Source: Sacculina carcini
Lineage: Eukaryota; Arthropoda; Thecostraca; Sacculinidae
Length of the DNA stretch: 64,000 nt
Assembly (NCBI GenBank): GCA_916048095.2
Contig: OU696572.1
Coordinates: 6,761,954-6,825,953 of the forward strand
Reading direction: 5' to 3'
Shown here piece after piece: positions 3,693-64,000 of the stretch (position 1 is its first letter; every line of letters starts with the position of its first letter). A model generated the notes under the pieces. The model had not been told where the DNA came from. It saw nothing but the letters and a program-made list of their open reading frames with translations, and ran no database searches. The position numbers and the translations under genes were made by a program.

Positions 3693-6069
3693 CAGTGGTT
3701 CTTAACCTTTTCTGTCCCGTTACCCCACATGAATTTCCTTGGCATCTCCATTACCCCATTCAAATTCGAAATAACAAAACACTATTGAATACTTCAGGAA
3801 CATTTATTATGCCAACGAAAAAACAGCCAACATTCGAATATGGAGAAATGAATCAGTGATACATTTTTTAACGACAAATTGGAAAAAAACTAATGAGAGA
3901 CCTGACACTTTCACAGCCATCAAACGGTTGAACCGTGGGGTGTAAGTAGTGAGGCAACACCTCAAGTCCCCATCAATCACAAGCCTGTTGCGAGATTTCG
4001 TCTTCATGGTCAACATCACCGAAAACCCTGCTTCACATCGATATGTTGATGCCGCTTGGACAAGCACATTGAGAGCTTCCTTTGCCAGATAAGGATAATC
4101 CTCCCTTTGCGTCGCCCAGGAGACCAAACTTTCACCAGCTTCAAAATCCGTCCTCAACTGGTTGTCTTCTCTCAGATTCAGGAATTCCAGCTTCGTTTGA
4201 ACGGCGGTATCTGGAATTGTGTTTTCACGCACCGTGAAGGGTCGCAAGATCCAGGCCTGGTTTCGTCGTTTTTCGAGACCTGGGAATTACTCCTCAATTG
4301 CTTCTGTCACAGCGACAAGGTGTGCCGAGATCTCTTCTCGGAAGGAAAATTGGTTATCCGGAACAGCTTCAAGTAATCCAGTCAACTCCAGGAAAGAGGA
4401 CGTATCACCATCATTGACGAGCCTTGTGTACAACTCTAGCTTTTTCTTGAAACCCGCAACCTTGTCCATAGCGATTGGTATGAAAGTTTGATTGCCCTGC
4501 AGGTAAATGTTCAGGGCATTTACCTCAGAGAAAAAGTCGCATAAATACGCAACTTTCGTCAGAAACCCATGATCATTCATCTTCTCGTGAAGCCGATTCT
4601 CTTTCCCAGTACGAACCCTTTCCAGAAAGAGAGCGACCTCCTCCCTAAGTTCCAATACACGCGTCAGGACATTCCCGCGGGAAAGCCACCGTACCTCCGT
4701 ATGAAACAAGAGATATACATGTTCCGCTCCCATTTCTTCGCACAGTTTTCGAAAGATGGGACAATTTGTTGCGCTTGTCCGGATATGGTTCACGATGTTC
4801 ACCACGTCTGACAGCACATCTTTCAGCGAAGAAGGAAGGGTTTTCATCGCCAAAGCATACCGGTGGATCATGCAATGGTTGAAGATGATATGAGGTGCAA
4901 CGTTTTTGACATAGGCTTTGATCCCAGACCTGCAGCCTGTCTTGGATGGCGCACCATCAATGCAAACACCAACAAGGCCCTTCCAGTCGAGCTCATGCTT
5001 GGTAATGAAGGTTTCCACAATTTGAACACGTCCTCTCCTCGTGTGGTGGTGGTCAGCGGTTCGGAGAAAAGATACTCTTCCTTGAGATCGGTTCCGCTGA
5101 TATAACGGACGAACACCATTAATTGTGAACAGCTGTCGACGTCTGTGGACTCATCCAGTTGTAAGGAGTAAAACTGGCTATCCTTGAGACTGTTCACAAC
5201 CTGTTACAAAATATCTTGGCTCATGTCCTGAATACGGCTCCGGATCGTATCGTTGGAAAGCGAGATTGTCTTGAGCTTGTCCGCCTGCTTCTCGCCTAGC
5301 ATCAGCTTCGTCGACTCTAGTAGACATGACTTTATCAGCGTCTGGCCAATAGTATGTGGTTTCTTGGCTTTGGCGATCCACAGGGCGATACGATAAGATG
5401 CCTCGAGTGCTGCTGTAGTCTGCTGAGCGAAGTGATCCGTAGAGTCAATGCGTTCAGCCTTCAGCGCGGTTTCGCGTCTTTTGAAATAATCCAAGCTCTG
5501 CCCTTTAAGATGATTATGTGCTGATTCCAAGTGAGCCTTAAGTTTGCTCGGCTTCATGCTCTCTTGCGTCAGAACCTTATTACAGACAACGCATTGCGGC
5601 TTCTCGACTCCCTGCTGGACAATGCTGGTGAAACCCATTCTCAGGAATGATTCATTGTACGACCGTTTTCTTGACATCGTTCACGATTCAATCTGCAAAG
5701 GAATGAACACAAAATCAGAAATCACAAAATATAACACACGGACAGTGTAGCACAGTAAAGCACTATGATCGGCCATAATTCACTCGATGTATGTAGTAAT
5801 AGCACAAAATACAAGAGCAAAAGGTTTACCCGGGTTAACTACTGTGTGTGGCCTGGGCGGTGATAGTAGCGCGGCTATGATTGGCTGGAGGGGCAGACCA
5901 AAACAATGGGGAGTGGTAGCCGCGCTGCTATTAGCTGGCCCGCCGCGGGGCTCCTCAATTGTCCCCACGTTGATGTAAAAATCAACTGTCCCAATTACCC
6001 TGCCATTATCCCCAGCAAAACCCCAAATTACCCCACTTGGGGTAATTACCCACAGGTTAAGAACCACTG
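3693..6069 (-). mobile_element. hAT DNA transposon, complete ends, dead transposase
   Basis: The ends are perfect 15-base inverted repeats, CAGTGGTTCTTAACC at 3693-3707 and its complement at 6055-6069. The flanks are a perfect 8-base target duplication, AAATATGG, at 3685-3692 and 6070-6077. The end sequence and 8-base duplication are diagnostic of hAT (Buster/Charlie-like ends). It carries a BED-finger transposase on the minus strand. The 5' end of the transposase is followed by about 390 bases of non-coding sequence to the right terminus. Confidence 0.97.
3810..5677 (-). pseudogene. hAT transposase (ZBED/FAM200-like), frameshifted
   Basis: DDE transposase with an N-terminal BED zinc finger (CVVC ... 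HLESAH, about residues 27-55 from the start at 5677). Then [11 protein letters not shown] (first Asp, about 5140), [11 protein letters not shown] (second Asp, about 4960), an insertion domain with [17 protein letters not shown], and the C-terminal dimerisation region AASTYRCEAGFSVM with the catalytic Glu (about 4020). The reading occupies at least three minus frames with breaks near 5200, 5020-4900 and 4290, so it is inactive. The family is also the source of domesticated vertebrate ZBED5/FAM200 proteins. Confidence 0.92.
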
Positions 6070-6723: not shown

Positions 6724-7481
6724 GCCCCTGCGGTAGGGGGGTTAGAATTCTGCCGCCGTAGCTTCCGCGTGTCGTAAAAGGCGACTAAAGGCAGACATGT
6801 CTGGTCAGGTTTCGGCCTGCTACTGGTAACATGTAACCCGGTACAACCAACCGCATGGTCGGAATGTCGGCGACTAATCCGGCCCCCCACTGGCTTATGC
6901 CAGTTAGGAGGGTGGCCATACACCCAGCAGGAACAAAAACAAGACCTGTCAAAGGGCTGATGAGCTGTTTAGCAGCCAACGGCCATCTGGAAACCCTCCC
7001 CCGTCGGATCGGCAAACAGGATCCTGGCCGCTGAGTGTCACGTCGCCCGGGGTATAGTGGTGGCGTGACGCAACACTCGTCTTTGGCCTGCGCGTCGAAC
7101 CCCGACGGGGCCGCTGTTTGGCTCCTCGACAGTGGAGAGAATGGTCCGACGCCGGCACGGGTGGCCGGATAGGGCTCAAGAGGGTCAAGGTTGAGGTGCC
7201 TGGTGCTCGAGGGGGGTCCCGCCCGGTGCAGTGTCCGCCGTTTGCAGTGGGGCTGCAGATGCTGAGTCCAGATGGACCGGTGGGGGTCACTGGTCCGGGC
7301 CCGGCGCTGTAGGTCCCGCGGACTCGTACCGGGCGGAGCTCGCAGCGAGCTCAGGGGTATTCGGTGCCCGTACAGCGCGCACCACCACTGGCGTGGCATC
7401 CCATGCTGGCTCTGCCCGTCCCCCCAGTAGGGCCCCGTGCAGAGGTGGGTGGTCGTGCGCGCAGAGACAAATACACAATTC

Positions 7482-8964
7482 ATGGCGTCAAAACCTACAA
7501 CCATCCCAACTGCTGGTCGTCCATCGGGCGATCGGCCACGGCCGCCGAAAGGTGGTCGTGCATTGAGACACGACCAGGACGACACTCGTGTTGCTCCGAC
7601 TCCGATGGTGTTGGTGTTTGCCAGCACCGATGAGAAAATAAAACTGTCTTCATTGAACCCGTTCCGTCGCATGGACGGTTTCAAAAACATTGGCGACGTG
7701 CCTGTCGAGACCAACAGACAACGTGATGGATCGTTGATGGTTAAATTGGGCACTGAGACGGCAGCAACCCGCGCGATAAAGGCAACTACGCTCCGTTATC
7801 GCGTAGGTACGGGCGAAAATAAGCGTTGGGTGAGCACCCCCATCTCGGTGTGTGCGCACTCGACAATGAACCACGCCAGAGGTGTTCTGTTCTGTCGTGC
7901 GCTAGAGGACGTCGATGATGAAGAGATTTGCGACGGATTGGCATCACAGGGTGTCATCCGCGTGGAGCGCATCGTCCGACGGCGTGAGGGTAGCGAGGTG
8001 CCAACGCACTCTTTCTTCCTCACGTTTGACGGTGCTGTTCTGCCGGACGACATCACGATCGGTGACATCCGTCAGCGTATCCGTGTCCGCCCCTACGTAC
8101 CCAACCCAATGCGATGTTACAGGTGCCAACGTTTCGGGCATACGAGCTCCCGCTGCAACCGTGCTGAGATCTGCGGACGCTGCTCATCCGAACGGCACAC
8201 CGCTGCTGATTGCGACAATGAATATTTCTGCGTCAATTGCAGGAGCAGCGGTCATGCGTCCTCGTCGCGTGACTGCCCGGAATGGCTGAAAGAAAAAGAA
8301 ATTCTGGCTATTCGCGCTGCCCAGCGCTGCAGTTTCGGCGAGGCGCGTGCTGTATATCGCAGCTCGCATCCACCAAGCCCGTCCTTTGTCGGCGTCGTCA
8401 CGAAGTCGGCTCAGCCTCCACAGTCTGTCGACTCGTTTCTGGAGAAGCTGACTGTGGGAGACTTCTTGAAGCTGGCGGGACGAATGGGCTTGAAGCTGGT
8501 CGTACCTGAGGTTGACAAACATGAGCATGAACCAACACCAGTTGGTCGGCGGCCTGAGGGGGCTGCCGTGTCGCGGTATGGACCGTACTGGCAAATCGAC
8601 AGCGATGCCGGTTAGGCAGGGCGGCAAAAAACCGGCCGCTCAGCAGGCTTCCAAGCCAGCAGAGCGGTCGTCTACGAGCTGGAGGAAATCCGGAGACTGG
8701 ACGGTGGTTCAACACAAGAGCCGCCGTTCGGTCAAGTCAGCCTCGCCGAGGAGTGACCGGCGAGCATCTCCCGGTCACAAAGCGAGCGCGGTCCCTGCAT
8801 CTCCGCGCTCGGCGGTTGCTGACGCACCGCCTTCCGCACACGACGGAGCGACTCCCACCACTGCCATGGAGGTGGAGAGTTCCTCTAAGCGGAAGCTCTC
8901 GGTCTCTCCAAGTGGGTCCCCACCTGACGCGGAGAGAGGACGATCGGCCAAGCGATGCGATTAG
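7482..8964 (+). pseudogene. LINE ORF1 protein (triple CCHC), frameshifted near C-terminus
   Basis: Gag-like RNA-binding protein. The preferred start is ATG 7482 (MASKPTT), shared with the other copies; an open frame reaches further up without support. About residues 205-265 hold three zinc knuckles: CYRCQRFGHTSSRC, CGRCSSERHTAADC and CVNCRSSGHASSSRDC. The first frame stops at 8615; the basic Ser/Arg-rich C-terminus (SGDWTVVQHKSRRS onward) continues in another frame to 8964. Relative to copy D, around 100 bases are missing near 8580, which explains the shift. Confidence 0.88.
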
Positions 8965-9004
8965 GTACATGTGCTACCTGGTTTTTAGTGTATATGTGCC
9001 TTTT

Positions 9005-9362
9005 TATCGTCGTTTCATCCGTTCTCGCTGGCAGCTCTCCTGGGACGAATGTGGTTCTAACAAATTAAAAGCAGTGAAGCCCGAAATCGGACATTGGATG
9101 TGCTCTTGTCGCTGGAAGAGGTCCGAGGAAGTGGCGCTCTGTCGTCTGCGTGTGGGTCACACGTACGACACGCATCGCCATCTTCTACTCGGACAACCTG
9201 AACCCACGTGCAGCGCATGTAATGCACGTCTCTCCGTGCAACACATCCTGGTGGAATGTCCAGCATTCTCAGAGGCGCGTCAACGTTTTCTTGGATCCGT
9301 TCGGAGTATTGACGAGGTTCTTGGACAGGATCAATCGGCGGTCATTGAGGGCCGCATTTTTT
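9005..9362 (+). pseudogene. LINE ORF2 C-terminal tail
   Basis: Only the cysteine-bearing tail after RNase H remains: SRWQLSWDECGSNKLKAVKP, HTYDTHRHLLLGQPEPTCSAC, LSVQHILVECPAFSEAR. The frame ends at the stop at 9362 (EGRIF). It matches the tail of copy D closely. The tail's conserved C-x2-C and HxxxxC pattern is usual downstream of RNase H in I-group elements. Confidence 0.87.
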
Positions 9363-9689
9363 AATTTTTACGGCTTTTGCTTTTTATAATTATTTATTGA
9401 TTTTTATTCTTCTGACTTTCATATTCATATCACTCACCCTCACGTATATTTATTTCATAGCTCCATTACGTCCATTACATTCATATGCATAGTTTTAGTT
9501 TAATTTAGACAGACTGGGGGGTGCCATATGGTCCTGGAGGCCGGTGCACCCCTAAAACTCAATAAACAACAATTTATTGTCGTAGTTGTGCATTGTTGTT
9601 TTCCGTGTTGCTCATTCATGTCTCATACTCAGTATTCGGATTTAGTTAATCAGCGCCAATGGACTTATGTAATCGCTTATATAACTATA

Positions 9690-40522: not shown

Positions 40523-40968
40523 TGCTCGATATAGGAAACCACCTCAATATTTGTCACAGTATATATATATATATATATATAATATATGATATTGGTGTAG
40601 CCTGGAAGAATATTCTCATTCAGACAAACGAGATTAAACTGGATTGCCGCTTTGCAGTTTTCAATCTTCTTCTTTGTCGTCTCGATCGCTCGTGCGAGTT
40701 TTTGATGATCGCTGTTGAGCTTGTGCAGTAATTCGCCGATGTGTAACGTTTCGGAGCAGCCGGTCTCCATCCTCAGACAATGTGGTCAACTAAATGCCGT
40801 TTGTTCGTTGTCGAGTGTGTGTTTATATAGGTCGTCAATTGTATGTGTTATTTTCACGCCTCGTGTATGCGCGCGGTGTGCGAAATTCGCACCTATGGTC
40901 GATGACGCCTATGGCTCACGCTACTGCGCGCCGCCGTTTGTGGCACCTCGCGCATGGGCGCGTCCAGC

Positions 40969-42016: not shown

Positions 42017-42127
42017 GTGCGAATTTCGCACACCGCGCGCATACACGAGGCGTGAAAATAACACATACAATTGACGACCTATATAAACACACACTCGACA
42101 ACGAACAAACGGCATTAAGTTGACCAC

Positions 42128-42168
42128 ATTGTCTGAGGATGGAGACCGGCTGCTCCGAAACGTTACAC
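42128..42168 (+). ncRNA. candidate hammerhead ribozyme in Penelope arm (also 40741-40783, minus)
   Basis: CTGAGGA (42133-42139), a GGAG/CTCC stem (42141-42144 with 42153-42156), then GAAA (42157-42160) and CGTTACA, with TGT/ACA able to pair as a short stem I. Hammerheads are known in Penelope terminal repeats. The base after CTGAGGA is unpaired and stem III would be minimal, so activity is doubtful. Confidence 0.4.
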
Positions 42169-42293
42169 ATCGGCGAATTACTGCACAAGCTCAACAGCGA
42201 TCATCAAAAACTCGCACGAGCGATCGAGACGACAAAGAAGAAGATTGAAAACTGCAAAGCGGCAATCCAGTTTAATCTCGTTTGTCTGAATGA

Positions 42294-42373
<80 letters not shown>

Positions 42374-46869: not shown

Positions 46870-48700
46870 TCAGTAAAGTAATATCATGCAATGCCAACTA
46901 TATGCATATTCTGTTTTAGCGGAAGCATAAATCTGGAATTATAGAGATGACAGAAGGTTTCATTGTTTTGATAGTGTTACACTTCTGAATTACTACACAC
47001 GAAGGACGGGTGTGAATTTGAGCAGTGTTGAGGGAAAAAACTTCGACAATAATTAAAACAAGAGTTTACAAATTTGACTTTTTCTATTGGTCGTTTTTCA
47101 TCAATTTTCTTTGTGTTTGTTTCGTGTTTGAGTTCTGAATTATTCCGCACGACGGGCAGCTTTATATATGAGGCTGGTTGTGGAAAAACATGTTTTCTAA
47201 ATTGAAACATAAATTTCACATTGAGACTTTTATATTGGCTAAAACTTTGCTATGGGTTTTTTTTCAATTTGCACTAATTTTTTATGAATTTAATTTTTTA
47301 TGAATTTTATGAACTGTTCCGCACGACGGGCGGGCTTAAATGTATCTATAAAGAGTGGGTTTAAATGATAGCGAGGTATATGATATTTTGCTAGCAGTAA
47401 ATATTCTAGCGATAAAAGTAGAACTGCTCTTAAGCAAATGATATATTTTGCGATCTGATGATATATGTAGTAGGAACAATACGTAGTATAATATAGATTG
47501 CATAATATAATATCGGCTGTAATATCAAGGGCTGTAATATCGGTGTAATCCAAAAAATATCAACTGTATGAATATGATGCATTAGTGGAAGCATTAACCG
47601 GGAATTATGAGATAATATTATGGAAACACATCATTTATATACTAAAAAAATTCATTATTATTTTGTGTTTATATTTCGAAATTATTCCTGACGACTGGCG
47701 ATTTAAGTATGAGGTGGGTTGACTGAATAATATGTCGTCAATTATAAGAATAAGAATATGCAAATTCAGAACATGAATTTTCTATTGGTTTAGATTTTAC
47801 AATTCAGAGTTTTTAGATATTAGACTGGCTGTTTGCATTTAAATATTACATTTGGCTGTTGCATTTAAATATTGTTTGCATTTAAATACTTTTGTTTTAT
47901 TAATTGTTCCGCACGACGGGTGGGTTCAAACATTCAATTTTACCGTGTGGAATGAATCCATATACAAAACTCACGGGCTTGACTTCAAGATCCAGACTCA
48001 CTAATGTAAATGTGACTTAAATGGTGTACAAATATATCGCATTATGCAACAAATGTGAATTTAGCTGCCTTACAGTTTGGTTCCGATACTATATTGGCGG
48101 GTTGAGAGAAAAGTATTGGTGGGCCGCGTGTTTGGGACACCTGGGGTAGATAATCTCAGTCTTGTGATTACAAATTATGATCGAATCAGTATATTTTGTG
48201 ATCACAAACTAATAAGTTCAATCACCTCAGACTAGGCTGAGTGCGGTCAAGATTGAATGGTTGGGTTGGGTTGGGTAGGTTTGCCTCAGGTTATATTGGG
48301 TTTTACTGATAGCGGAACATATATAAATTTTAGCAATACATATTATAGCGGTAAAAGTAAGCTAGTACTTGAGCAAATAATGTTGGGAAATCATCTTAAG
48401 TAATAAATATAGTTTGGAAACATTCTGATGAAAAGATTTCATCATCTTTCATTGTTTGTTTCGTGTTTGTGTTCTGAATCATACCACACGACGGGCAGAT
48501 TTATATATCAAGCGGGTTGAGGGATAATATTTGTCATAATAAAAACAAAAATATTCACATTTAGACTTTTCTATTGGTTAAGATATTTATAGGTTACATT
48601 TCTTGCTTTTAAATTTGCATTCATTATATTTTATGGATTTAATATGAATTTTATTGTATGAATTGCTCCGCACAACGGACGGGTTTTAATGCTAGTATAT
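46870..48700 (-). repeat. left arm of large inverted repeat (partner 54400-55870)
   Basis: Matches 54400-55870 in reverse over most of its length, for example the AACCCAACCCAACC stretch (48250-48275 with 54815-54835) and the segment 46880-46985. It has an extra block of about 370 bases at about 47640-48010. The arms are separated by about 5.7 kb. Confidence 0.82.
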
Positions 48701-48726
48701 ATATATATATACTAGCATTAAAACCA
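48680..48726. repeat. head-to-head palindromic junction
   Basis: GGTTTTAATGCTAGTATAT followed by ATATACTAGCATTAAAACC, about 40 bases, where minus- and plus-oriented copies meet. The same TACTAGCATTAAAACCCGCC start is at 51907. Confidence 0.85.
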
Positions 48727-49150
48727 TTACATGAAATAAAATTCATATTATATTAATAATAAAAATTCAAATTAAAAAGGATTATATTAAATACATATAA
48801 ATCCTAATCAAATGAAAATTCTAAATTTCATTTTTTATGTTTATTTTGACAAAATATGATCCCTCAACTCGCCTCATATTGAAACCCGCCCGTCGTACGG
48901 AATAATTCAGAGCTCGAATACGGTTCTGGACCTTGAAGTTAAATCAGTTAGTTTAGTATATAAACTCGTTTTACACGGTGAAATTGAACGTTTTATTGTC
49001 TTTAGTTACTGCCCGCGGGACATTTTTATTTCATAAACATGATCCATCACTGAGTTTACGTTTGAGGCCCCTGATTTATACCAGTGAGCCCGCACAATTA
49101 TGTCACCTCGTATTTAAGCATACTTACACATACATACACAGACAGATCAG

Positions 49151-49189
<39 letters not shown>

Positions 49190-49441
49190 CCTCAACCCGA
49201 CCCGGCCTCAACCCGCCCGTCGTGCGGAACAATTCATAAAGTAATATTCATGTTCAATCCATAAAATAAACTGAATACAAATTAAAAAGCAAAAAGTTCA
49301 ACCTGTAAATACGCTCACCAATAACAATTCTAAATGTGAATATTTTCATTTTTACTTTGACAAAATATTATCCCTCAATCTGCCTCATATATGAACCTGC
49401 CCGTCGTGCGGAATAATTCAGATCACAAACACGTAACAAAC

Positions 49442-49850
49442 GGAATAGTGGAATAGTGGGCGCGCTCAATGGATCATTTGACACAATTTCTGGAGAATTT
49501 GTTGAATTGTCGTTCATTGTATAGCTTGTACCGTACCGCTCATTGTATAACTACAACGCAAACATTAGACACTATACGGGCAAACTTAATGCCGTCCACT
49601 AGTGTGATTCACTGAAATGTTCCCGATGCGAGTAGTTTGTGCTGGTGCCTCGATTGAGTTGTTTTGCGTTTCAATGTTTCAGCCAAAATGTACAGTGGTT
49701 GTTAAATTTACGGGCGCTAACTGAATTGATAGGTGTGTGTGTGTGCATGTAAAGGCAAAACGTATCTATTTATATCTATCTGTCTGTATTTATTATATGT
49801 GCGTGGTGATTGTCAATACACTTCAATTTAAAAAAAAAAACAAAAAAAAA
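49442..49850 (+). mobile_element. poly(A) retrocopy with target duplication
   Basis: AAACACGTAACAAAC occurs at 49427-49441 and 49849-49863, flanking about 409 bases that end in an A-rich tail (A10-C-A10). The insert has no repeat motif in common with its host block. AATACA lies about 20 bases before the tail as a possible variant poly(A) signal. No open frame or known RNA recognised. Confidence 0.75.
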
Positions 49851-50949
49851 ACACGTAACAAACAATGAAAGTTCTAGCATGTAAACCCGCCCGTCGTGCG
49901 GAACAGTTCATACTATTAAATTTGTATTCAATTCATAAGAGAAAAGGAATATGAATTTAAAAAAGTGTAAACCCATAAAAAATCCATATTTCTCTATTTT
50001 TATATTATTTTCACAAAATATTATCCTCAATCCGCCTCATATTTAAACCCGCCCGTCGTGCGGAATAATTCAAAATTCAGATACGGAATAATGAAAATTT
50101 ACTTAACATTTTATCATAATGTTTACAAAATATATTTATAAATTAGCATCATCTAGCATGGAAACACTTCCGTTTTGCAGAACAATTAATAAAGTAAAAT
50201 AAATATTGAATTCATAAAAGAAAACGAATACAAATTTAAAAAGAAAATAGTAAACCCATAAAAAGTAATAACCAATAGAAAAGTCTAAATATGAATGTGT
50301 ATATTTTAGATGTGGCAAAATATTTTCCCTCGAACAGCCTCATATTTCGACCCGCCCGTCGTGCGGAACGATTAATAAAATATAATGAATCAAAAAGCAA
50401 AAAGCTTATCCAACAGAAAAATGTAGATTTGTAAATTCTTGTTTTAATTATAGACGAAGTGTTTTCCCTCAACACTGCTCAAATTCACACCCGTCCTTCG
50501 TGTGTAGTAATTCAGAAGTGTAACACTATCAAAACAATGAAACTTTCTGTCATCTCTATAATTTCAGATTAATGCTTCCGCTAAAACAGCATATGCATAT
50601 AGTTGGCATTGCATGATATTACAACCCATATCCTTATGCAACCTAAGCGTATGCAACTTGAAATTAATCCAATTAAATTACACAGTAAAATTCAGTAGTT
50701 TGCTTTGTTACCAGTAGCATTTTACCAGCAGGTCGTGCGGAACCATTCATGTGTAAAAAGTGAGGACAATATAGCCTTTCTATTCAGTATAATGTATCAT
50801 TAATTAAACTGTACGCAATAAAACGACACCATCCATGCTTGGAGCTAATATGATGCATTCTTAATTGTGATTGGGCTTCAGTGAAATTTAATCAGTGTAT
50901 ACTCCTGTGTAGTCGCAAGTGCGCAAAATAGCTGTCAAATTGGCAATAT

Positions 50950-51880
50950 GTCCTTTTGACTTTACACCGCCGTAACTTCCTTCAAATACACTTTGGGAAA
51001 TAAAAAATTATTCCGCATTGTAGAACACAAAATTTCCAGCACAATGGTGTAATTTATTTTTATGTGTAACAAATATTTACTGAAAAATAGTAGAAAAATG
51101 AATTAATTTTAGTTGCCCGGTGTTCAAGTGTTTGTGTTCAAGTGTTCACGTTTTTTTGTATCGTTTTTGGTTATAAATTATAGTTTTTCTTGTAGAACAC
51201 AAAATTCTCTACATAATAGTATAATTTTTATAGCTGTACCATTGCTGGTTTATGAGGAATGGATAGCGAAATATTGACCAAAATATTCACATTTTTAGTG
51301 CTAATTTTGCCTTTTTGATTTTGTCATTTTGACTTCACACCGCCGTAACTTTTTTTAATACAATTTGGAAAATTAAAATGTATATCGTGTTGTAGAAAAC
51401 AAAATTCCCAGCATGATGGTATTACTTATTTAGATGTGTGATAATTAGTTTTTGAGAAATAGAGAAAAAAATATAGAATATCGGTCACCCGAAGTTAAAA
51501 TGAAATTTTGAATGTATATTGAAATTTTGTCATTTTTACATGTTTCACAAATAATTTTTGGATATTAATTATAGCCTATCTTGTAGAACGGAAAATTCTC
51601 TACACAGTGGTATAATCTGTATTGCTGTACCATTTCTGGTTTAGGAGAACTCGATGGCAGAATATTGACCAAAATTCTCGCATTTTTCAGGGTTCATTTT
51701 GTCTTTTCACCGCTATAACTTTTTTTGGTTTCATTTTTAAAATTTAAAATTTAGTGTAAAGTGTAGACAATAAAATTTCCAACGTGATGATACAAATTGT
51801 TAGCGGGTAAGCCAAGTGGTGGCCGAGTATTAGCTGATAGAAAATGGACCAACGAGGGTGGGGCACACAGACACACACAC
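50950..51880 (+). repeat. subrepeats of about 370 bases; second set at 56170-57470
   Basis: Each unit starts near CACCGCCGTAACTT and includes TTGTAGAA.ACAAAATT and GATGGTATAATTTATTT. Both sets end with GAAAATGGACCAA, a (CA)n run and AGAGGATCTCTT followed by (TA)n, at 51865-51905 and 57430-57505, showing that 50.5-51.9 and 55.7-57.5 are paralogous copies. Confidence 0.78.
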
Positions 51881-52152
51881 ACACAGAGGATCTCTTATAT
51901 ATATATACTAGCATTAAAACCCGCCCGTTGTGCGGAGCAATTCATAAAAATATTGCAAATTAAAAACAAATAAGGCAAACTCATAAAAACCTTAATCAAT
52001 TAAAAAGTCTAAATTTCATTATTTTTAATTTTATTTTGACAAAATATTTTCACTCAGCCCGCCTCATATTTAAACCCGGCCGACGTGCGGAATAATTCAG
52101 AACTCGAACACCATCCGTTCTGGTTCTTGAAGTAAAATCCATTAGTTTTGTA

Positions 52153-53108
52153 CAGGGTGTTCCAAAAGAAACAGTGCAGTAGGAATATGCTAATAATCCA
52201 AAGAAACAAAACTCACAGAAACATACTATTTATTGCAAATATTCACAAATCTAATACCTTATCAACTAAAGTACGATTGAGGATTGACTCGTGCAGTAAG
52301 ATATGATCTACAATAACTGTTGAAAGTGTGCGCCATTCACCTGCAGACATAAACGAGCGCGACGCTGCATGCTTTGAAAAACACACTCAAGTTCATCAGG
52401 TTTGATGTTTTGAATAACACTTGTTATTTTCTGCTTCAGCTCATCCGTAGTTCGAGGATTGTCTGCATACACTGAGCCTTTCAATTTGCCCCACAAATAA
52501 AAGTCAGGTGTTAAATCCGGTGATCGAGGTGGCCACAAACCACGAGAGATCACACGATCCCCAAAGACATCACCAGCTGCAGCCATACTGACACGAGCCG
52601 TAAGAATTTAAGTTGATGCACTGCTCGGTGAGTTGATGTTAGAGATATCCTAGTTTCTTGAGACAAACGCCTCAAAGACTTTCGTGGGCTCCTCTGAAGT
52701 TTGTTGGTAACATTCTGTAATACTGTATCTGTAACGACTTTTGGGCGGCCACTTTTGGGTTTGTCTTGAACACTTCCAGTTTCTTTGAACTTATGCAACA
52801 AAGCGGAAACACAATTTCGATGCGGCAAACGTTCTGCACCAAATTTTTCTAACTCTTGCACTTCTTTTGTGAATTTGCCACCATCTCGGAGAACATTTTC
52901 AACAATAAATATCCTTTCTTGTAAGGTAAGCACCATTTTCCCTGAAACAAAAGAATATTTAATATAAATATCTAAAATTAGATAACTAAATTATCTAAAT
53001 AAAATATTTAAAATCTTTTGGGAAAACATTTTCAACTACATTTAAACATTTTAAATGTATAAATATCCTTTCTCGTGTTCAGTGCACTGTTTCTTTTGGA
53101 ACACCCTG
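52153..53108 (-). mobile_element. mariner-type transposon, internally deleted, perfect ends
   Basis: Perfect 26-base inverted repeats (start CAGGGTGTTCCAAAAGAAAC) at 52153-52178 and 53083-53108, flanked by TA. At 956 bases it is shorter than autonomous members. Nested in the GC-motif block. Confidence 0.93.
52308..52936 (-). pseudogene. mariner-type transposase, middle deleted
   Basis: The N-terminal frame from 52936 holds a helix-turn-helix DNA-binding region (ERIFIVENVLRDGGKFTKEV, NCVSALLHKFKETGSVQDKP, KSGRPKVVTD), similar to the HTH domain of a mariner-like family. From about 52586 another frame has RGLWPPRSPDLTPDFYLWG, the segment with the last catalytic Asp, followed by DELKQKITSVIQNI. 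The first two catalytic Asp regions are missing and the two halves are out of frame. Confidence 0.87.
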
Positions 53109-53124
53109 TATATGAATTCATTCT

Positions 53125-54415
53125 ACACGGTGAAATTGAACGTTTTATTGCTGCCCGCGGGACATTTTTATTTCATAAAAATGAGCCATCGCTTCGTTTG
53201 CGTTTGAAGCCTCTGATCATTGAACCAGCGAACCATGAACCAGCGCAATTATGTCACCTCATATTCAAGCATACATACACAGACAGACAGATAATTTCTT
53301 CTTTATGTATATATATAGCATTCAAACCCGCCCGTTGTGCGGAGCAATTCATAACATGAAATTCATATTCAATTCATAAAAAATATGGAAAAATAAAAAT
53401 GAAATAGGGTACACTCATAAAAATATTCATTTATTCAAAATTATAAGTTTAATTATTTTTATTTCGACAAAATATTTCCCCTCAGTCCGCCTGAGTGATT
53501 TTTAAACCCGCCCGTCGTGCTGAATAATTCAGAACTCGAATAAGTCAAATCCATTGGTTTTGTGTATGGATTAATTCTACAGGGTAAATTGAACGTTCTA
53601 TTGTCTATAGTTGCTGCCCGCGGAGCATTTTTATTAAAAAATACCTTTTTTAAAATAAACCATTTGAAAAAATGAACTAAAAAATGGAAACACTTTTTTT
53701 AAACCCGCCCCTCGTGCGGAATAATTCATACAATAAAATTCATATTTGAAGTCAAATCCATTGGTTTTGTGTATGGATTAATTATACAGGGGAAATTGTA
53801 CGTTCTATTGTCTATAGTTGCTGACCGCGGAGCATTTTTATTTTTTTTTTAATTACCTTTTTTTAAATGAACCATTTGAAAAAATGAACTAAAAAACACT
53901 TTTTTCATCTATTGAAAATTATAAGTTTAATTATTTTTATTTCGACAAAATATTTCCCCTCAGTCCGCCTGAGTCATTTTTAAACCCGCCCGTCGTGCTG
54001 AATTATTCAGAACTCGAACACGATCCGTTCTGGATCTTGAAGTCAAATCCATTGGTTTTGTGTATGGATTAATTCTACAGGGTAAATTGAACGTTCTATT
54101 GTCTATAGTTGCTGCCCACGGAGCATTTTTATTAAAAAATACCTTTTTTTAAATGAACCATTTGAAAAAATGAACTAAAAAATGGAAACACTTTTTTTAA
54201 ACCCGCCCCTCGTGCGGAACAATTCATACAATAAAATTCATATTTGAAGTCAAATCCATTGGTTTTGTGTATGGATTAATTATACAGGGGAAATTGAACG
54301 TTCTATTGTCTATAGTTGCTGACCGCGGAACATTTTTATTTGTAAAAAAATTACCTTTTTTTAAATGAACCATTTGAAAAAATTAACTAAAAAACACTTT
54401 TTTTAAACCCGCCCG
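53125..54415 (+). repeat. tandem duplications of GC-motif modules
   Basis: The block CAAATCCATTGGTTTTGTGT...CTATAGTTGCTG.CCGCGG recurs at about 53546, 53757, 54040 and 54247, with alternating CAG- and CAT-type motifs, consistent with a duplicated unit of about 490 bases. Sequence 53125-53310 equals that at 48975-49150. Confidence 0.75.
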
Positions 54416-55870
54416 TCGTGCGGAACAATTCATACAATAAAATTCATATCAAATCCATAAAATATATTGAATACAAATTGAAAACCAAAAAATGTAACCT
54501 ATAAATATCTTAACCAATAGAAAAGTCTAAATGTGAATATTTTTGTACTTATTTTGACAAATATTATCCCTCAACCCGCCTGATATATAAATCTGCCCGT
54601 CGTGTGGTATAATTCAGAACACAAACACGAAACAAACAATTAAAGATGATGAAATATTTTCATCAGAATGTTTCCAAACTATATTTATTACTTAACATCA
54701 TTCCCCAATATCATTTGCTTAATTACTATTTTACTTTTACCGCTATAATATTTATTGCTAAAATTTATATGTTTTCCGCTATCATTAAAACCCAATATAA
54801 CCTGAGTCAAACCTACCCAACCCAACCCAACCATCCAAACTTGACCGCACTCAGCCTAGTCTGAGGTGATTTAACTTATTAGTTTGTGATCACAAAATAT
54901 ACTGATGCGATCATAATTTGTAATCAGAAGACTGAGATTATCTACCCCAGGGGTCCCAAACACGCGGCCCACAAATACTTATCTCTCAACCCGCCAATAT
55001 AGTATCGGAACCAAACTGTAAGGCAGCTAAATTCACATTTGCTGCATAATGCGATATAATTATACACCATTATCATATTATCTCATAATTCCCGGTTAAT
55101 GCTTCCACTAATGCATCATATTAATGCAGTTGTTATTTTTTGGATTACACCGATATTAAAGCCCTTGATATTACAGCCGATATTATATTATGCAATCTAT
55201 ATTCTGCTACGTATTATTCCTAATACATATATCATCAGATCGCAAAATATATTTAAAGGTTCACATCATTCTCCAAAATCATTTGCTTAAGAGCTATTCT
55301 ACTTTTATCGCTAGAATATTTACTGCTAGCAAAATATCATATACCTCGCTATCATTTAAACCCACTCTTTATAGATACATTTAAGCCCGCCCGTCGTGCG
55401 GAACAGCTCATTAAATATAATTAATATTCAATTCATAAAAAAATTGGTGAAAATTGAAAATGAAAAACAAACCCATAGGAATGTTTAGCCAATATGAAAG
55501 TCTAAATGTGAAATTTATGTTTCAATTTAGAAAACATGTTTTTCCACAACCCGCCTCATATTTAAAGCTGCCCGTCGTGCGGAAAAATTCAGAACTCAAA
55601 CACGAAACAAACACAAAGAAAATTGATGAAAAACGACCAACAGAAAAAGTGAAATTTGTAAATTCTTGTTTTAATTATTGACGATGTTTTTCCCTCAACA
55701 CTGCTCGAATTCACACCCGGCCTTCGTGTGTAGTAATTCAGAAGTGTAACACTATCAAAACAATGAAACTTTCTGTCATCTCTATAATTCCAGATTTATG
55801 CGTCCGCTAAAACAGCATATTCATATAGTTGGCATTGCATGATATTACAACCCATATCCTTATGCAACTT
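54400..55870 (+). repeat. right arm of large inverted repeat
   Basis: Reverse partner of 46870-48700. Junctions are gradual rather than sharp; see that entry for the anchor matches. Confidence 0.82.
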
Positions 55871-57533
55871 AAGCTTATGCAACTTGAAATTAAACCAATT
55901 AAATTATACAGTAAAATTCAGTAGTTAACTTTGTTCCCAGTAGTATTTTACCCGCCCGTCGGGCGGAACAATTCATGTGTAAATATTGAGGACAATAAAG
56001 CCATTCTATTCAGTATAGTGTAGCATTAATTAAACTGTACCCAATAAAACCACACCATCCATGCTTGGATCTAATATGATGCATTCTTAATTGTGATTGG
56101 GCTTCAGTGAAGTTTAATCGGTGTATATTCCTGTGTAAGCGCAAGTGCGCATAATAGCTGTCAAATTGGTAATATGTGCTTTTGACTTTACACCGCCGTA
56201 ACTTCCTTCAGATACACTTTGGAAAATTACAAATTATACCGTATTTTAGAAAACAAGATTTCTAGCACGATGATATAATTTATTTTTATGTGTTACAAAT
56301 ATATTACTGAGAAATAGTAGAAAAAGGAATTAATTTCAGTCGCCCGGTGTTCAAGTGCAATTTTGGATGTGTTTGAGAATTTTGCCAATTGTACATGTTT
56401 TTTGTATCATTTGTGGGTATAAATTATAGCTTATCTTGTAGAACACAAAATTATCTACACAGTAGTATATTCCTGTGTAATCGCAAGGGCGCATAATAGC
56501 TGTCAAATTGGCAATATGTCCGTTTGTTTTTACACCCCCGTAACTTCCTTCAGATACACTTTGGAAAATTACAAATTATACCGTATTGTAGAAAACAAAA
56601 TTTCTAGCACGATGGTATAATTTATTGTAATGTGTGACAAATATTTCCTGAGAAATGGGTAGAAAAATGAATTAATTTTAATCACCCGGTGTTCAAGTGT
56701 AATTTTGGATGTATTTGAGAATTTTGCCAATTTTACACGTTTTTGTATCATTTGTGGGTATAAATTATAACTTTTCTTGTAGAACACAAAATTATCTACA
56801 CACTAGTATAATTTTTATAGCTGTACCATTGCTGGTTTATGAGGAATAGATAGCGGAATATTGACCAAAATATTCACGTTTTTTGTGCTAATTTTGCCTT
56901 TTTGCTTTTTTGTCATTTACACTTCACACCGCCGTAACTTTTTTTAATACACTTTGGGAAATTAAGAATTATACCGTGTTGTAGCAAACAAGATTCCCAG
57001 CATGATGGTATTACTTATTTTGATGTGTGATTATTAGTTTTTGAGAAATAGAGAAAAAAGTATAGAAAATCGGACGCGTGGAGTTTAAATAAAATTTTGA
57101 ATGTAGATTGATTTTTTTCCATTTTACATGTTTCATATTTAATTTTTTGGTATAAATTATAATTTGTTGAGTAGAACAGAAAATTTTCTACACAGTGGTA
57201 TAATTTGTATAGTTGTACCATTGCTGGTTTAGGAGGAGTAGTCTTCAGAAAATTGTCCGAAATTTTCGCATTTTTCAGGGTTGATTTTGTCTTTTCACCG
57301 CTATAACTTTTTTTGATTTCATTTTTGATATTTAAAATTTAATCTAAAGTGTAGATAAGAAAATTTCCAACGTGATGGTATAAATTGTTAGCAGGTAGGC
57401 CAAGTGGTGGCCAAATAATAGCTGATAGAAAATGGACCAAGGAGGGTTGGACAGACACACAGACACACACACACACACACAGAGGATCTCTTTTATATAT
57501 ATAGATATATATGTGTGTGTGTGTGTGTGTCAG

Positions 57534-58160: not shown

Positions 58161-58535
58161 ATAAATATTAATAATAAATCGTGTCGCACGAAGTTGTCAG
58201 ATTCATCTCCAAATCATCATGCCCCTGCGGTAGGGGGGCTAGAATTCTGCGGCCGTAGCTGCCGCATGTCGTAAAAGGCGACTAAAGGCAGACATGTTTG
58301 GTCAGGTTTCGGCCTGCTACTGGTAACATGTAACCCGGTACAACCAGCCGCATGGTCGGAATGTCGGCGACTATTCCGGCCCCCCAGTGGCCTATGCCAG
58401 TGAGGAGGGTGGCCAGACATCCAGCAGGAAGAAAAACAAGACCTGTCAAAGGGCGGATGAGCTGTTTAGCAGCCAACGGCCATCTGGAAACCAGAGGTCT
58501 GCCTGGTCGTGCGCGCAGAGACAACGAAACATCAC

Positions 58536-59711
58536 ATGGCTTCAAAACCCACGACCACCCCAACTGCTGGTCGTCCATCGGGCGATCGGCCACGGCCGCC
58601 GAAAGGTGGCCGTACACTGAGCCACATGCACGACGAGAGTCGTGTTGCACCTATGCCGATGGTGCTGGTTTTAACCAGCACCAATGAACACGTTTCACTG
58701 TCCTCGCTGAACCCATTCCGTCGTCTGGATGGGTTCAAGAACATTGGAGACGCGCCTGTTGAAGCCAGCCGACAGAGAGACGGTTCTCTGCTGGTCAAGT
58801 ACGCAACTGAGACGGCAGCAGCCCGCGCGATGAAGGCCGACACTTTTCGGTATCGCGTGGGATCGGGCAATGAGAAGCCTTGGATAAGCACCCCCATCTC
58901 GGTGTGTGCGCATTCGACACTTAACCATGCCAGAGGCGTTATGTTTTGTCGTGCGCTAGAGGGTGTTGAGAACGAGGAGATATGCGACAGATTGGCATCC
59001 CAAGGTGTCATCCGCGTGGAGCGCATCGTCCGACGGCGTGAGGGTAGCGAGGTGCCAACGCACTCGTTTTTCGTCACGTTTGACGGATTTGATCTGCCGG
59101 ATGACATCAAGGTCGGTGACATCCGTCAGCGTATCCGAGTCAGCCCCTACGTGCCTAACCCGATGCGGTGCTACAGGTGCCAACGTTTCGGACATACGAG
59201 CTCCCTCTGTAATCGTGCAGAGATCTGTGGACGTTGCTCATCCGAACGGCACACCGCTGCTGATTGCAAAGAGGAATATTTCTGTGTCAATTGCAGGAGC
59301 AGCGGTCATGCGTCTTCGTCGCGTGACTGCCCGGAATGGCTGAAGGAGAAAGAGATTTTGGCCATTCGCGCTGCCCAGCGCTGCAGTTTCGGCGAGGCGC
59401 GTGCTGTGTACCGCAGCTCGCATCCGTCGGGCCCGTCCTTTGCCGGCACCGTCAAACTGTCAGCTCAACCTCCACAGTCTGTCGACTCGTTTCTGGAGAA
59501 GCTGACAGTTGGCAACTTTCTCAAGCTGGCGGGACGAATGGGCTTGAAGCTGGTCGTACCTGAGGCTGATAAACATGAGCTTGAACCAACACCGGTTGAT
59601 CGGCGGCCTGAGGAGGTTGCCGTGTCACGGTCGCCAACGGCCGCACCCCAGCGTTCCCAGGCGTCCGCGACCCAGCGGCCCCAGACGGCCGCAGCCTTTT
59701 CAGGCTGCTGA
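58536..59711 (+). CDS. LINE ORF1 protein (triple CCHC), copy D
   Basis: Nucleic-acid-binding gag-like protein, open for 391 codons from ATG 58536 (MASKPTT), the start conserved in copies A and E. About residues 210-265 have CYRCQRFGHTSSLC, CGRCSSERHTAADC and CVNCRSSGHASSSRDC, all ligands intact. SVDSFLEKLTVGNFLKL follows, then a Pro/Ala/Gln-rich end. The natural basic C-terminus is in another frame (from 59575), so the frame probably ends early at 59711 after an indel. Confidence 0.85.
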   Translation: MASKPTTTPTAGRPSGDRPRPPKGGRTLSHMHDESRVAPMPMVLVLTSTNEHVSLSSLNPFRRLDGFKNIGDAPVEASRQRDGSLLVKYATETAAARAMKADTFRYRVGSGNEKPWISTPISVCAHSTLNHARGVMFCRALEGVENEEICDRLASQGVIRVERIVRRREGSEVPTHSFFVTFDGFDLPDDIKVGDIRQRIRVSPYVPNPMRCYRCQRFGHTSSLCNRAEICGRCSSERHTAADCKEEYFCVNCRSSGHASSSRDCPEWLKEKEILAIRAAQRCSFGEARAVYRSSHPSGPSFAGTVKLSAQPPQSVDSFLEKLTVGNFLKLAGRMGLKLVVPEADKHELEPTPVDRRPEEVAVSRSPTAAPQRSQASATQRPQTAAAFSGC

Positions 59712-61245
59712 GCGGCGACCTCAGCGGGTCGCCGATCGGCCGGTCAACCGGCCGATGGACCGCGCTGGCAAATCGGCAGCGATGCCGGTTAGTCAGGGCG
59801 GCAAAAAACCTGCCGCTCAGCAGGCTTACAAGGCACTGAATGTGCTGAAGACTGTTTCCCGCATGCGGTATGGAGCAGATCGACAGTCCCTTCTCCTTCT
59901 GTACCGCTCGTTAGTCAGGTCGCGTCTCGATTACGCAAGCATCGTATATGATCTGGCTTCGGAGTCAGCAAAAAGCCGTTTGAATGTCGTACACCACGCA
60001 GGGATACGCATTGCCACCGGCGCGTTTCGCACGTCACCAATCGTCAGCCTCCTCGTTGAGGCTGATGAGGCTCCGCTGGCGCTTCGTCGTCAAGAGCTGG
60101 GCATGCGTTATTCTCGCAAGCTGGCAAGCACCCATGAAAACCCCGCGTATGACCTAGTATTTTCCCAGCATGTGCCTGAGCAGCATCACCTTCCAGGACC
60201 TCAGTGTTCTGTGCTGTTTTGCAGCAAAATGAAGGCACTGCTGGAGTCATGCGGGATGGGTGCTAACGACGTCCTCAGACAAGAATACACGGCGGAGTCA
60301 CCCTGGGAATTGGTCACACCCGAGGTTTACGTCTCGCTAGCAGCTCTGCCGAAACACCGTACAGTGCCCAGTGTGCTTCGCTCAAACACACTGGAGCGAA
60401 TTCATTCTTACGGACGGTATACTGCCGTGTACACTGATGGATCTAAGTCGGCCAGTGGTGTAGGTTGTGCGTTTGTAAGTGGAGGTACGTGCCGCTCGAG
60501 CACGCTGCCACCGAGCGCCTCCATTTACACGGCTGAACTTCACGCTATCCTGCTGGCCCTGGTTTTTATTCGCTCATCTTCTTTTTCATTGTTTTTAGTT
60601 TTATCTGACTCCCTTAGTGCTTTAACTTCATTATCGTCTTTCTCCTTACATCCTCTTATACAGAGGATTTTTATCTCTCTTGACATCATCCACCACCAGG
60701 GCAAGCGTGTAAAGTTCTGCTGGATTCCGGCCCATATTGGTGTTTTGGGCAACGAGCGAGCTGACAGAGCCGCAAAAAGAGCTGCTGAACGAGACTTTTA
60801 TTCATTTTATTTTAACTTTCCCATTCCGTATTCGGACTTTTATCCTATTATACATCGTTTTATCTGTTCTCGCTGGCAGCTCTCCTGGGACGAATGTGGT
60901 TCTAACAAATTAATAGCTGTGAAGCCCGAAATCGGACATTGGATGTGCTCTTGTCACCGGAAGAGGTCCGAGGAAGTGGCGCTCTGTCGTCTGCGTGTGG
61001 GTCACACGTACGATACGCATCGCCATCTTCTACTCGGACAACCTCAACCCACGTGCAGCGCATGTAATGCACGTCTCTCCGTGCAGCACATCCTGGTGGA
61101 ATGCCCATCATTCTCAGAGGCGCGTCAACGTCTTCTTGGATCCGTTCGGACTATTCACGATGTTCTCGGACAGGAGCAATCGGCGGTCATTGAGGGCCGC
61201 ATTTTTGAGTTTTTACGGCTTTTGCCTTTTAGAATTATTTATTGA
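59575..61245 (+). CDS. fused ORF1 tail-ORF2 frame with RNase H, 556 codons
   Basis: No stop for 556 codons. Residues 1-85 are the ORF1 C-terminal region (PMDRAGKSAAMPVSQGG). The junction is at AAQQA|YKALNVLKTVS, from which ORF2 sequence downstream of the RT core follows (LLLLYRSLVRSRLDYASIVY). RNase H: YTDGSKSASGVGC (about 286), AELHAILLAL (about 319), LVLSDSLSAL (about 345), WIPAHIGVLGNERADRAA (about 383-400), so D, E, D, H and D are all present. The C-terminal cysteine/histidine tail HTYDTHRHLLLGQPQPTCSAC and LSVQHILVEC is complete. Whether it is expressed is unknown; the fusion may be a chance of the deletion. Confidence 0.8.
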   Translation: MSLNQHRLIGGLRRLPCHGRQRPHPSVPRRPRPSGPRRPQPFQAAERRPQRVADRPVNRPMDRAGKSAAMPVSQGGKKPAAQQAYKALNVLKTVSRMRYGADRQSLLLLYRSLVRSRLDYASIVYDLASESAKSRLNVVHHAGIRIATGAFRTSPIVSLLVEADEAPLALRRQELGMRYSRKLASTHENPAYDLVFSQHVPEQHHLPGPQCSVLFCSKMKALLESCGMGANDVLRQEYTAESPWELVTPEVYVSLAALPKHRTVPSVLRSNTLERIHSYGRYTAVYTDGSKSASGVGCAFVSGGTCRSSTLPPSASIYTAELHAILLALVFIRSSSFSLFLVLSDSLSALTSLSSFSLHPLIQRIFISLDIIHHQGKRVKFCWIPAHIGVLGNERADRAAKRAAERDFYSFYFNFPIPYSDFYPIIHRFICSRWQLSWDECGSNKLIAVKPEIGHWMCSCHRKRSEEVALCRLRVGHTYDTHRHLLLGQPQPTCSACNARLSVQHILVECPSFSEARQRLLGSVRTIHDVLGQEQSAVIEGRIFEFLRLLPFRIIY

Positions 61246-62175: not shown

Positions 62176-64000
62176 GCTCCCTGCGGTAGGGGTGGTTATT
62201 ATTCTGCCGCCACAGCTGCCGCTTGTCGTAAAAGGCGGATAAAGGCAGACTGGTCTGGTCAGGTCTCGGCCTGCTACTGGTAACATATAATCCGGTACAA
62301 CCAGACGCATGGTCGTAATGTCGGCGACTAATCCCTCTCCCCTACTGGCCTATGCCAGTGAGGAGGGTGGCCAGGCACCCAGCAGGAAGAAAAACAAGAC
62401 CTGTTAAAGGACAGAGGAGCTGTTTAGCAGCCAACGACCATCTGGAAACCCTCCCTCGTCGGATCGGCAAGCAGGAACCTGACCGCTGAGTGTCACATCA
62501 CCCGGGGTGTAGTGGTGGCGTGACGCAACACTCGTCTTTGGCATGCGCGTTGAACCCCGAGGGGGTCGCTGTTTGGCTCCTCGACAGTGGAGAGAATGGT
62601 CCGACGCCGGCACCGGTGGCCGGATAGGGCTCAAGAGGGCCAAGGGTGAGGTGCCTGGTACTCGAGGGGGCCCGTCCGGCGCATTGTCCGCCGTTTGCAG
62701 TGGGGATGCAGTTGCTGAGTCCAGATGAACCGGTTGGGGTCACTGGTCCGGGCCAGGCGTTGTAGCTCCCGCGGACTCGTACCGGGCGGAGCTCGCAGCG
62801 AACTCAGGGGCATTCTGTGCCCGTACAGCGCGCACGGTCACTGGCCTGGCATCCCATGTTGGCTCTTCCCGTCCCCCCAGTAGGGCCCCGTGCAGAGGTG
62901 GGTGGTCGTATGCCCAGAGACAATAATAAATGTTATGGCTTCCAAATCTTCAACCACCACACCTGCTGGTCGTCCAAGGGGCGATCGGCCACGGCCGCCG
63001 AAAGGTGGCCGTACGATGAGTACTGTCATGGACAACACTCGTGTTGCACTTGTGCCCATGGTGTTGGTTTTTACCAGCACCTATGAGCATGTCAAATTAT
63101 CGTCCCTGAACCCGTTCAGACGTGTGGATGGAGTCAAGAACATTGGTGACGCACCTGTCGAGGCCAGCCGACAGAGAGATTGGTATCTGCTTGGCAAATA
63201 CGGATATGATACTACAGCAGCCCGCGCGATGAAGGCCGACACATTTCGGTATCGCGTGGGATCGGACAATGACAAGTGTTGGGTGAGCACCCCATCTCGG
63301 TATGTGCGCATTCGACCCTTAACCATGCAAAATGTGTTATGTTTTGCCGTGCGCTAGAGGGTGCTGATAACGACGAAATCTGCGACGGCTTGGCATCCCA
63401 AGGTGTCATCCGCGTGGACTGTATCGTCCGACGGCATAAGAGTAGCGAGATGCCAACGCACTCTTTCTTCCTCACGTTTTACGGTGCTGTTCTGCCTGAT
63501 GACATCAAGATCGGTGACATCCGTCAGCGTATCCGTGTCCGCCCCTACGTACCCAACCCAATGTGATGCTACATGTGCCAACGTTTCGGTCATACGAGCT
63601 CCCGCTGCAACCGTGCTGAGATCTGCGGACGCTGCTCATCCGAACGGCACACCGCTGCTGATTGTGACAATGAGTCAATTACAGGAGCAGCGGTCATGCG
63701 TCCTCGTCGCGTGACTGCCCTGAATGGCTGAAAGAAAAGTAAATTCTGGTTATTCGCGCTGCCCAGCGCTGCAGTTTCAGCGAGATCCGTGCTGTGTATC
63801 GCAGCTCGCATCCGTCGGGCCCGTCCTTTGCTGGCACGGTCAAATACTCTGCTCAATCTCCGCAGTTCATTGACTCGTTTCTGGAGAGGCTGACGGTTGA
63901 CGACTTTCTGAAGCTGGCTGGACGAATGGGTCTCAAGCTGGTCGTACCTGAGGCTGACAAACGTCGAAAAGAATCAGCACCGGTTGATCGGCGTCCTGAG
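62176..64000 (+). mobile_element. I-group LINE copy E, runs off the window
   Basis: 5' end near CCCTGCGGTAGGGGTGG, a 5' UTR resembling copy A over its full length, and ORF1 to the window end. It is the most diverged of the family copies here. Confidence 0.88.
62935..64000 (+). pseudogene. LINE ORF1, copy E, frameshifted
   Basis: From ATG 62935 (MASKSSTTTP). A lost C near 63290 shifts the frame (restored reading in the next frame as TPISVCAHSTLNHAKCVM), a CGA-to-TGA change makes a stop in front of the first knuckle (about 63564), and a loss near 63675 removes part of the third knuckle. First and second knuckles are readable (CYMCQRFGHTSSRC, CGRCSSERHTAADC). Confidence 0.85.

Follow-up and report, generated by a model that had tools for sequence, protein, structure and literature searches.

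Evidence for a high-copy, non-coding canonical Helitron family with internal copies of its 3' terminal motif in Sacculina carcini

Results

Composition of the repeat block

The window, by which we mean the whole 64,000-nucleotide stretch of Sacculina carcini DNA analyzed here, contains a block of modular repeats that had been described from the sequence alone as an unassigned repeat at 46870-57505. Sequence comparison indicates that the block is made up of three putative Helitron copies, which we call W1, W2, and the truncated W3 (Table 1). Together these elements extend from 46878 to 57505, in agreement with the earlier limits. We compared W1 to E1, a 4598-bp copy located between A and T at C1:503332-507929. 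The two are collinear and 88-98% identical, and W1 additionally carries a mariner-like insertion and a locally duplicated segment. Diverged direct repeats with units of ~340-390 bp form a block that makes up the 5' half of the elements. W2 starts with TATATA instead of TCTATA (TA for TC), and the hairpin has been lost at its CTAG end. The CTAG terminus of W3 falls at a module that E1 carries internally. The sequence-only reading noted that modules in the left part of the block are inverted. We found the same arrangement, which arises because W3 is a copy in its own right, truncated at its 5' end and oriented the other way.

Table 1. Coordinates of the elements and features that make up the repeat block (window positions)
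Feature	Position	Strand	Basis or remark
W1, whole-length copy; TC at 57505, CTAG ends at 51908	51908..57505	-	Collinear with E1
W1 5' end TCTATATATATAAAAGAGATCCTCTG, preceded by A (57506)	57480..57505	-	Sequence
W1 3' end CCGCACAACGGGCGGGTTTTAATGCTAG, with terminal hairpin motif and CTAG; next base T	51908..51935	-	Sequence
W1 5' block of diverged direct repeats, ~340-390 bp	56089..57479	-	Similar W2 block at ~50893-51880
Direct local duplication inside W1, two ~500-bp copies, 92.6% identical	53426..54403	-	Sequence
W1 internal fusion of an old 3' end (GAATGCTAT) into 5'-end-like sequence (TATACATAAAGAAGAAATTATCTGTC)	53311..53342	-	Sequence
956-bp mariner-like element inserted in W1, separate from the Helitron	52153..53108	-	25-bp inverted ends CAGGGTGTTCCAAAAGAAACAGTGC; TA on both sides (52151-53110)
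W2, second copy, head-to-tail with W1; CTAG end at 48712	48712..51907	-	Sequence
W3, 5'-truncated at 46878, 3' end CTAG at 48695	46878..48695	+	Opposite orientation
Degenerate 25-base core copies, n = 28 (terminal and subterminal types)	46986..55975	.	Core search, up to 7 mismatches

We found no stop-to-stop frames longer than 123 amino acids in the block outside the mariner-like insertion, and the family is therefore non-coding here. The frame in the mariner-like insertion is broken in two (52308-52607 and 52550-52990, minus strand), and its match to the Pfam HTH_32 family (E 9.4e-7) is below the curated cut-off. An Rfam search at the gathering score returned two tRNAs and nothing else.

Other repeats lie near the block. 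Similar non-LTR retrotransposon-like copies, recognized by eye, are found beside the Helitron cluster at 58470-61245, 7431-9364, and 62884-63566, and an RNase H match is present at 59548-61242 (E 7.9e-11). A further repeat occurs as two inverted copies at 40610-40855 and 42054-42304. At C1:4389465, a Helitron array has a 5' flank ~98% identical to this repeat, and the Helitron there sits in or beside the (AT)n end of that window-type repeat.

The block was originally recognized by a GC-rich 16-mer, CCCGCCCGTCGTGCGG. Allowing up to 3 mismatches, we obtained 25 matches in the window at 24 distinct places, since the palindromic site at 55951 was matched on both strands. Seven copies are exact. 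Dinucleotide shuffles (n = 100) gave a mean of 0.08 matches and a maximum of 1 at the same threshold, showing that the repetition is genuine. Searching with a 25-base core and up to 7 mismatches identified the 28 degenerate places in Table 1. The minus strand has six of these, which all lie to the left of 48684 and within W3, and the plus strand has the other 22. The earlier count of at least 28 copies is thus accurate for degenerate copies but too high for closer ones. Terminal and subterminal motifs form pairs with a spacing of mostly 150-190 bp (a ~180-bp pair), and the linkers between pairs are unrelated in length. The uneven spacing and the two alternating suffixes (AACAATTCAT and AATAATTCAG) were as previously described. 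E1 contains 11 recognizable motif copies in one orientation, all in its last 2.7 kb, as counted in fetched parts covering all but 138 bp. At around position 4112-4180 of E1, an old 3' end is fused to 5'-end-like sequence.

Genome-wide copies and their termini

We searched the genome (264 Mb in 43 contigs) for further copies. The exact 16-mer occurs 6265 times (3204 forward, 3061 reverse), compared with 0 for the reversed control. The motif is dispersed and is not confined to a local tandem amplification. Read on the strand opposite to the one used originally, it corresponds to a 3' terminal hairpin whose terminal copies read CCGCACAACGGGCGGGTTTTAATGCTAG. The opposite end of the same blocks reads TCTATATATATAAAAGAGATCCTCTGTGTG. 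In the fetched copies, the element overall has the form TCTATATATATAAAAGAGATCCTCTG ... CCGCACAACGGGCGGGTTTTAATGCTAG. The terminal GC-rich palindrome (CCGC/GCGG) has a 4-bp stem and is located 13 nt before the 3' end, compared with some 10-12 bp for the hairpin of canonical Helitrons. The hairpin is weak, and its folding was no better than that of shuffles in three of four sequences.

The bases flanking each end were counted across the genome. The 28-base 3' end, which terminates in CTAG and so conforms to CTRR, has 2507 exact copies. T follows CTAG in 2383 of these (95.1%), and another base follows in 124. The 26-base 5' end, which starts with TC, has 2075 exact copies, with A before TC in 1646 and another base in 429. 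Among 100 of the 429 that were listed, we counted by eye 95 G, 3 C, and 2 T. G is the base that a head-to-tail junction, CTAG|TC, places before TC, and in most of these cases it belongs to the CTAG of such a neighbor. Nine of the non-A starts listed lie on C1 below 7.37 Mb, and 8 of these abut exactly a listed 3' end, the exception being C1:1574175. Flanks of this kind are what insertion between A and T should leave behind, also where the A|T lies just before an older copy.

Head-to-tail arrays were observed, several of them with exact CTAG|TC junctions. The unit length is nearly constant in the arrays at C4:3269199-3282858 (4544-4545 bp), C2:3866496-3875714 (4596 bp), and C1:1022000-1042000 (~4.6 kb). 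These arrays could be concatemers, the result of repeated insertion at the same site, or later duplications. In a different arrangement at C1:1.73-2.43 Mb, a large unit of ~12-14 kb recurs, each time with two minus-strand motifs 250 bp apart. This unit is probably a tandem or segmental repeat that contains Helitrons of the family.

We looked for empty insertion sites by joining the flanks of E1, and those of a second copy (E2, C1:2626271-2632489), at A|T and searching the genome with each joined pair. Scoring 40 of 1515 candidates gave 4 matches to the flanks themselves and 36 to E1. Eight of the 36 cover the right flank only, and 25 of the remaining 28 cross the junction with a length difference of -9 to +13 bp. 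These 25 uninterrupted matches demonstrate that E1 arrived as one piece, without target duplication. Its host sequence is a repeat that is empty at 25 other places. No empty site was found for E2, for which its own flanks alone were matched among the same 40 candidates. The flank counts, together with the empty site of E1, show insertion between A and T without target duplication. It had been suggested to check whether whole blocks occur at other loci with defined ends and target duplications; defined ends were found genome-wide, but target duplications were absent from the copies examined.

A TC start, a CTAG end, and a GC-rich palindrome 13 nt before that end are the marks of canonical Helitrons. 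The TC start, the CTAG end, and a hairpin near the 3' end are described as Helitron marks in the part of PMC4683698 available to us. We conclude with high confidence that the block consists of three clustered copies of a canonical Helitron family that is non-coding and present in high copy number. The ends do not fit the Helitron2/Helentron type, which has asymmetric terminal inverted repeats and a non-CTRR 3' end.

We considered whether the block could instead be a satellite, with the ~180-bp terminal/subterminal pair as a monomer that was amplified locally in tandem. The spacing of ~150-190 bp does recur within pairs. However, the copies are dispersed genome-wide on both strands, the linkers between pairs have unrelated lengths, and the empty site shows E1 to be a single insertion. 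Repeats of the family are not restricted to tandem arrays lacking a defined insertion, though head-to-tail arrays of whole elements exist, and we regard a satellite as very improbable. A fold-back element or MITE with inverted ends is scarcely credible, even though W3 and W1 together form a ~1.5-kb inverted repeat, because W3 has a 3' end of its own and is a distinct, truncated copy, the ends of E1 are not inverted copies of each other, and the A|T site shows no target duplication. A reading of the block as one big inverted repeat was likewise rejected.

The suggestion that the motif marks the terminus of a non-autonomous element was borne out by its place in the 3' terminal hairpin of copies with defined ends across the genome. 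The fold-back part of that suggestion was not, as the copies examined lack terminal inverted repeats and target duplication. We also searched collections that are not meant for eukaryotic DNA. The 25-mer had 0 matches in viral contigs, the 3' end pattern had 0 in bacterial and archaeal genomes, and window positions 51905-52135 did not match phage records; given the content of these collections, such negatives carry little weight.

A candidate autonomous partner

The Helitron Rep-side domain PF14214 has 150 matches in the genome, with a best E of 9.5e-58 and frames of up to 1740 amino acids. Autonomous and non-autonomous Helitrons usually have only ~30 bp in common at the 3' end. At a locus on C11 (7753180-7753682), the first part has a short similarity to the C-terminus of a Rep/helicase (13 of 26 residues; E 1e-5 in a search against a single 503-base sequence), and 420 bp further on the locus ends in the last 34 bp of the family and CTAG. 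Nothing beyond those 34 bp is common to both, and CTAG is followed by A, not T, in this copy.

We examined the association of PF14214 with 3' ends that lack the following T. Among 100 such ends listed (from 124, on contigs to C29, using 91 of the 150 PF14214 matches), we found 4 with PF14214 on the same strand and no more than 6 kb upstream (5 matches in all), compared with 0 in three control classes and an expectation of ~0.1. The two C11 loci among them are neighbors with similar spacing and may represent one duplication. For ends followed by T, inspection by eye of 100 listed ends, all at 0.5-7.37 Mb of C1, placed none within 6 kb downstream of the three Rep loci there (4611934, 4647425, and 4734480).

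A large intact Rep/helicase family is represented at C36:1181045, C35:2697942, C18:2558475, and C1:4611934, with 92-99% identity in the stretches compared. No end matching the present family was found in the DNA read for these copies, beyond which their own 3' end lies. As judged from these sequences, the diverged Rep/helicase at C11 seems to fit the partner role better than the large intact family. The positional association with PF14214 and the common 3' end at C11, weighed against the absence of T-flanked ends near Rep loci, indicate that the C11 Rep/helicase-associated element is a likely, but not proven, candidate for the autonomous partner of the family.

Two features of the large family were observed in passing. 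Within C1:4606900-4614900, the intact-looking copy starts in a (TA)n run directly downstream of an old 3' end of the present family, which does not imply placement inside such an element. At C36:1179545-1183087, on the minus strand, a unit of 69 bp (23 residues) is repeated in tandem in the N-terminal part of the frame.

Origin of the internal motif copies

A single mobile unit that holds ~11 copies of its terminal motif internally is unusual. We grouped 218 distinct motif contexts and found that one upstream module accounts for 77 of them. Right after the hairpin, this module leads into 7 different sequences, each seen at least twice, and 6 single ones. Two shifted versions of one downstream sequence were counted once among the 7. 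A remnant reading ATGCTAG or ATGCTAT is present in 5 of the 7 downstream classes (40 of 77 contexts), and one remnant-bearing class runs into 5'-end-like sequence. We lean toward a model in which the ~11 internal copies are earlier 3' ends that were bypassed, or were fused by head-to-tail self-insertion. When a 3' end is bypassed, flanking DNA or a neighboring element would become internal.

A rather less probable explanation is that the array in this same Helitron family was produced when copies recombined, or when the template was switched between them, at the conserved motif. Head-to-tail copies are common and offer ample substrate for unequal exchange, and the duplication at 53426-54403 in W1 is local. 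Exchange would likewise join one upstream module to 7 different downstream sequences exactly at the motif. However, the CTAG-like remnants that begin most of the downstream classes, and the class that leads into 5'-end-like sequence, are what old ends would leave.

The array could also be functional, providing alternative terminators or binding sites for the Rep/helicase, which we consider quite unlikely. Copies followed by GCTAG have retained the 4-bp stem in 35 of 41 cases and unclassified copies in 74 of 112, but subterminal-type copies have done so in only 20 of 81; these copies are related and not independent, so the counts are descriptive and not a test. The W3 terminus, located at what is an internal module in E1, would suit alternative terminators. 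Against a function, conservation of the core does not uniformly exceed that of its neighbors at 61 sites chosen by 3' flank alone.

Bypass and self-insertion may be part of a broader process, which we put forward tentatively as an unlikely possibility. The lineage's own 3' terminator would serve as a building block, with each bypass or self-insertion adding a terminal module and the array being kept as alternative stops. If true, the family would keep yielding new combinations of end and body, and its sequence would be a readable record of successive end-bypass events.

Discussion

The best "unknown" of this window can now be annotated as a mobile family present in thousands of copies. The sequence-only reading recognized no described family. 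That may hold for the family itself, which is new and non-autonomous, but it does not hold for its kind, as canonical Helitrons are well described. The internal array is the point of interest. We infer that the Rep/helicase is supplied in trans and that copying follows a rolling-circle route. A Rep/helicase supplied from elsewhere would nick the 5' TC end, unwind one strand, and stop at the 3' hairpin and CTAG, and the copy would then insert between A and T with no target duplication. The exact CTAG|TC junctions are compatible with rolling-circle transposition. Head-to-tail arrays with such junctions should be useful for testing circle-based insertion against insertion at the same site. The chain of probable former 3' ends in single units provides a natural record of end bypass, and the copies within one genome could reveal in what order and at what rate bypass occurred.

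In a narrow search of partly available literature, we found no Helitron reported to contain 3' terminal hairpins in an array. We compared the family to four known systems, using the portions of each source available to us. Mothra, a high-copy non-autonomous Helitron from rice (PMC4683698), shares the TC start, the CTAG end, low GC content, a hairpin 13 bp before the 3' end, and internal tandem-repeat blocks. Its blocks are not described there as copies of the 3' terminal hairpin, and its length is 1.25-2.7 kb versus 4.6 kb here. The Hel1 Helitrons of insects (PMC6544945) are likewise non-autonomous and canonical, with separate Rep/helicase elements. The three Hel1 exemplars are 162-257 bp long and were set against our family by description, not by sequence; the main text of that source, as available, does not contain the string TCTATATATA.

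Helibat and Helraiser from bats (PMC4778049) resemble the family in their TC and CTAG ends, their AT target, and the use, predicted here, of a hairpin as terminator. Bypass that creates new 3' ends, proposed here as a source of the internal copies, has been shown for Helraiser and was also seen in bat genomes (PMC4778049). The Helibat/Helraiser hairpin has been experimentally tested, whereas that of the present family is known from sequence, and the account consulted describes no array of terminal motifs like the one found here. Composite Helitrons from Fusarium (PMC5148889) also carry several termini per mobile unit, and self-insertion has been proposed as the source of their multiple 5' termini. 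As described in the sections seen, these composites have Helitron2-type ends and a multiplied 5' terminus, whereas in the present family it is the 3' terminal motif that is multiplied.
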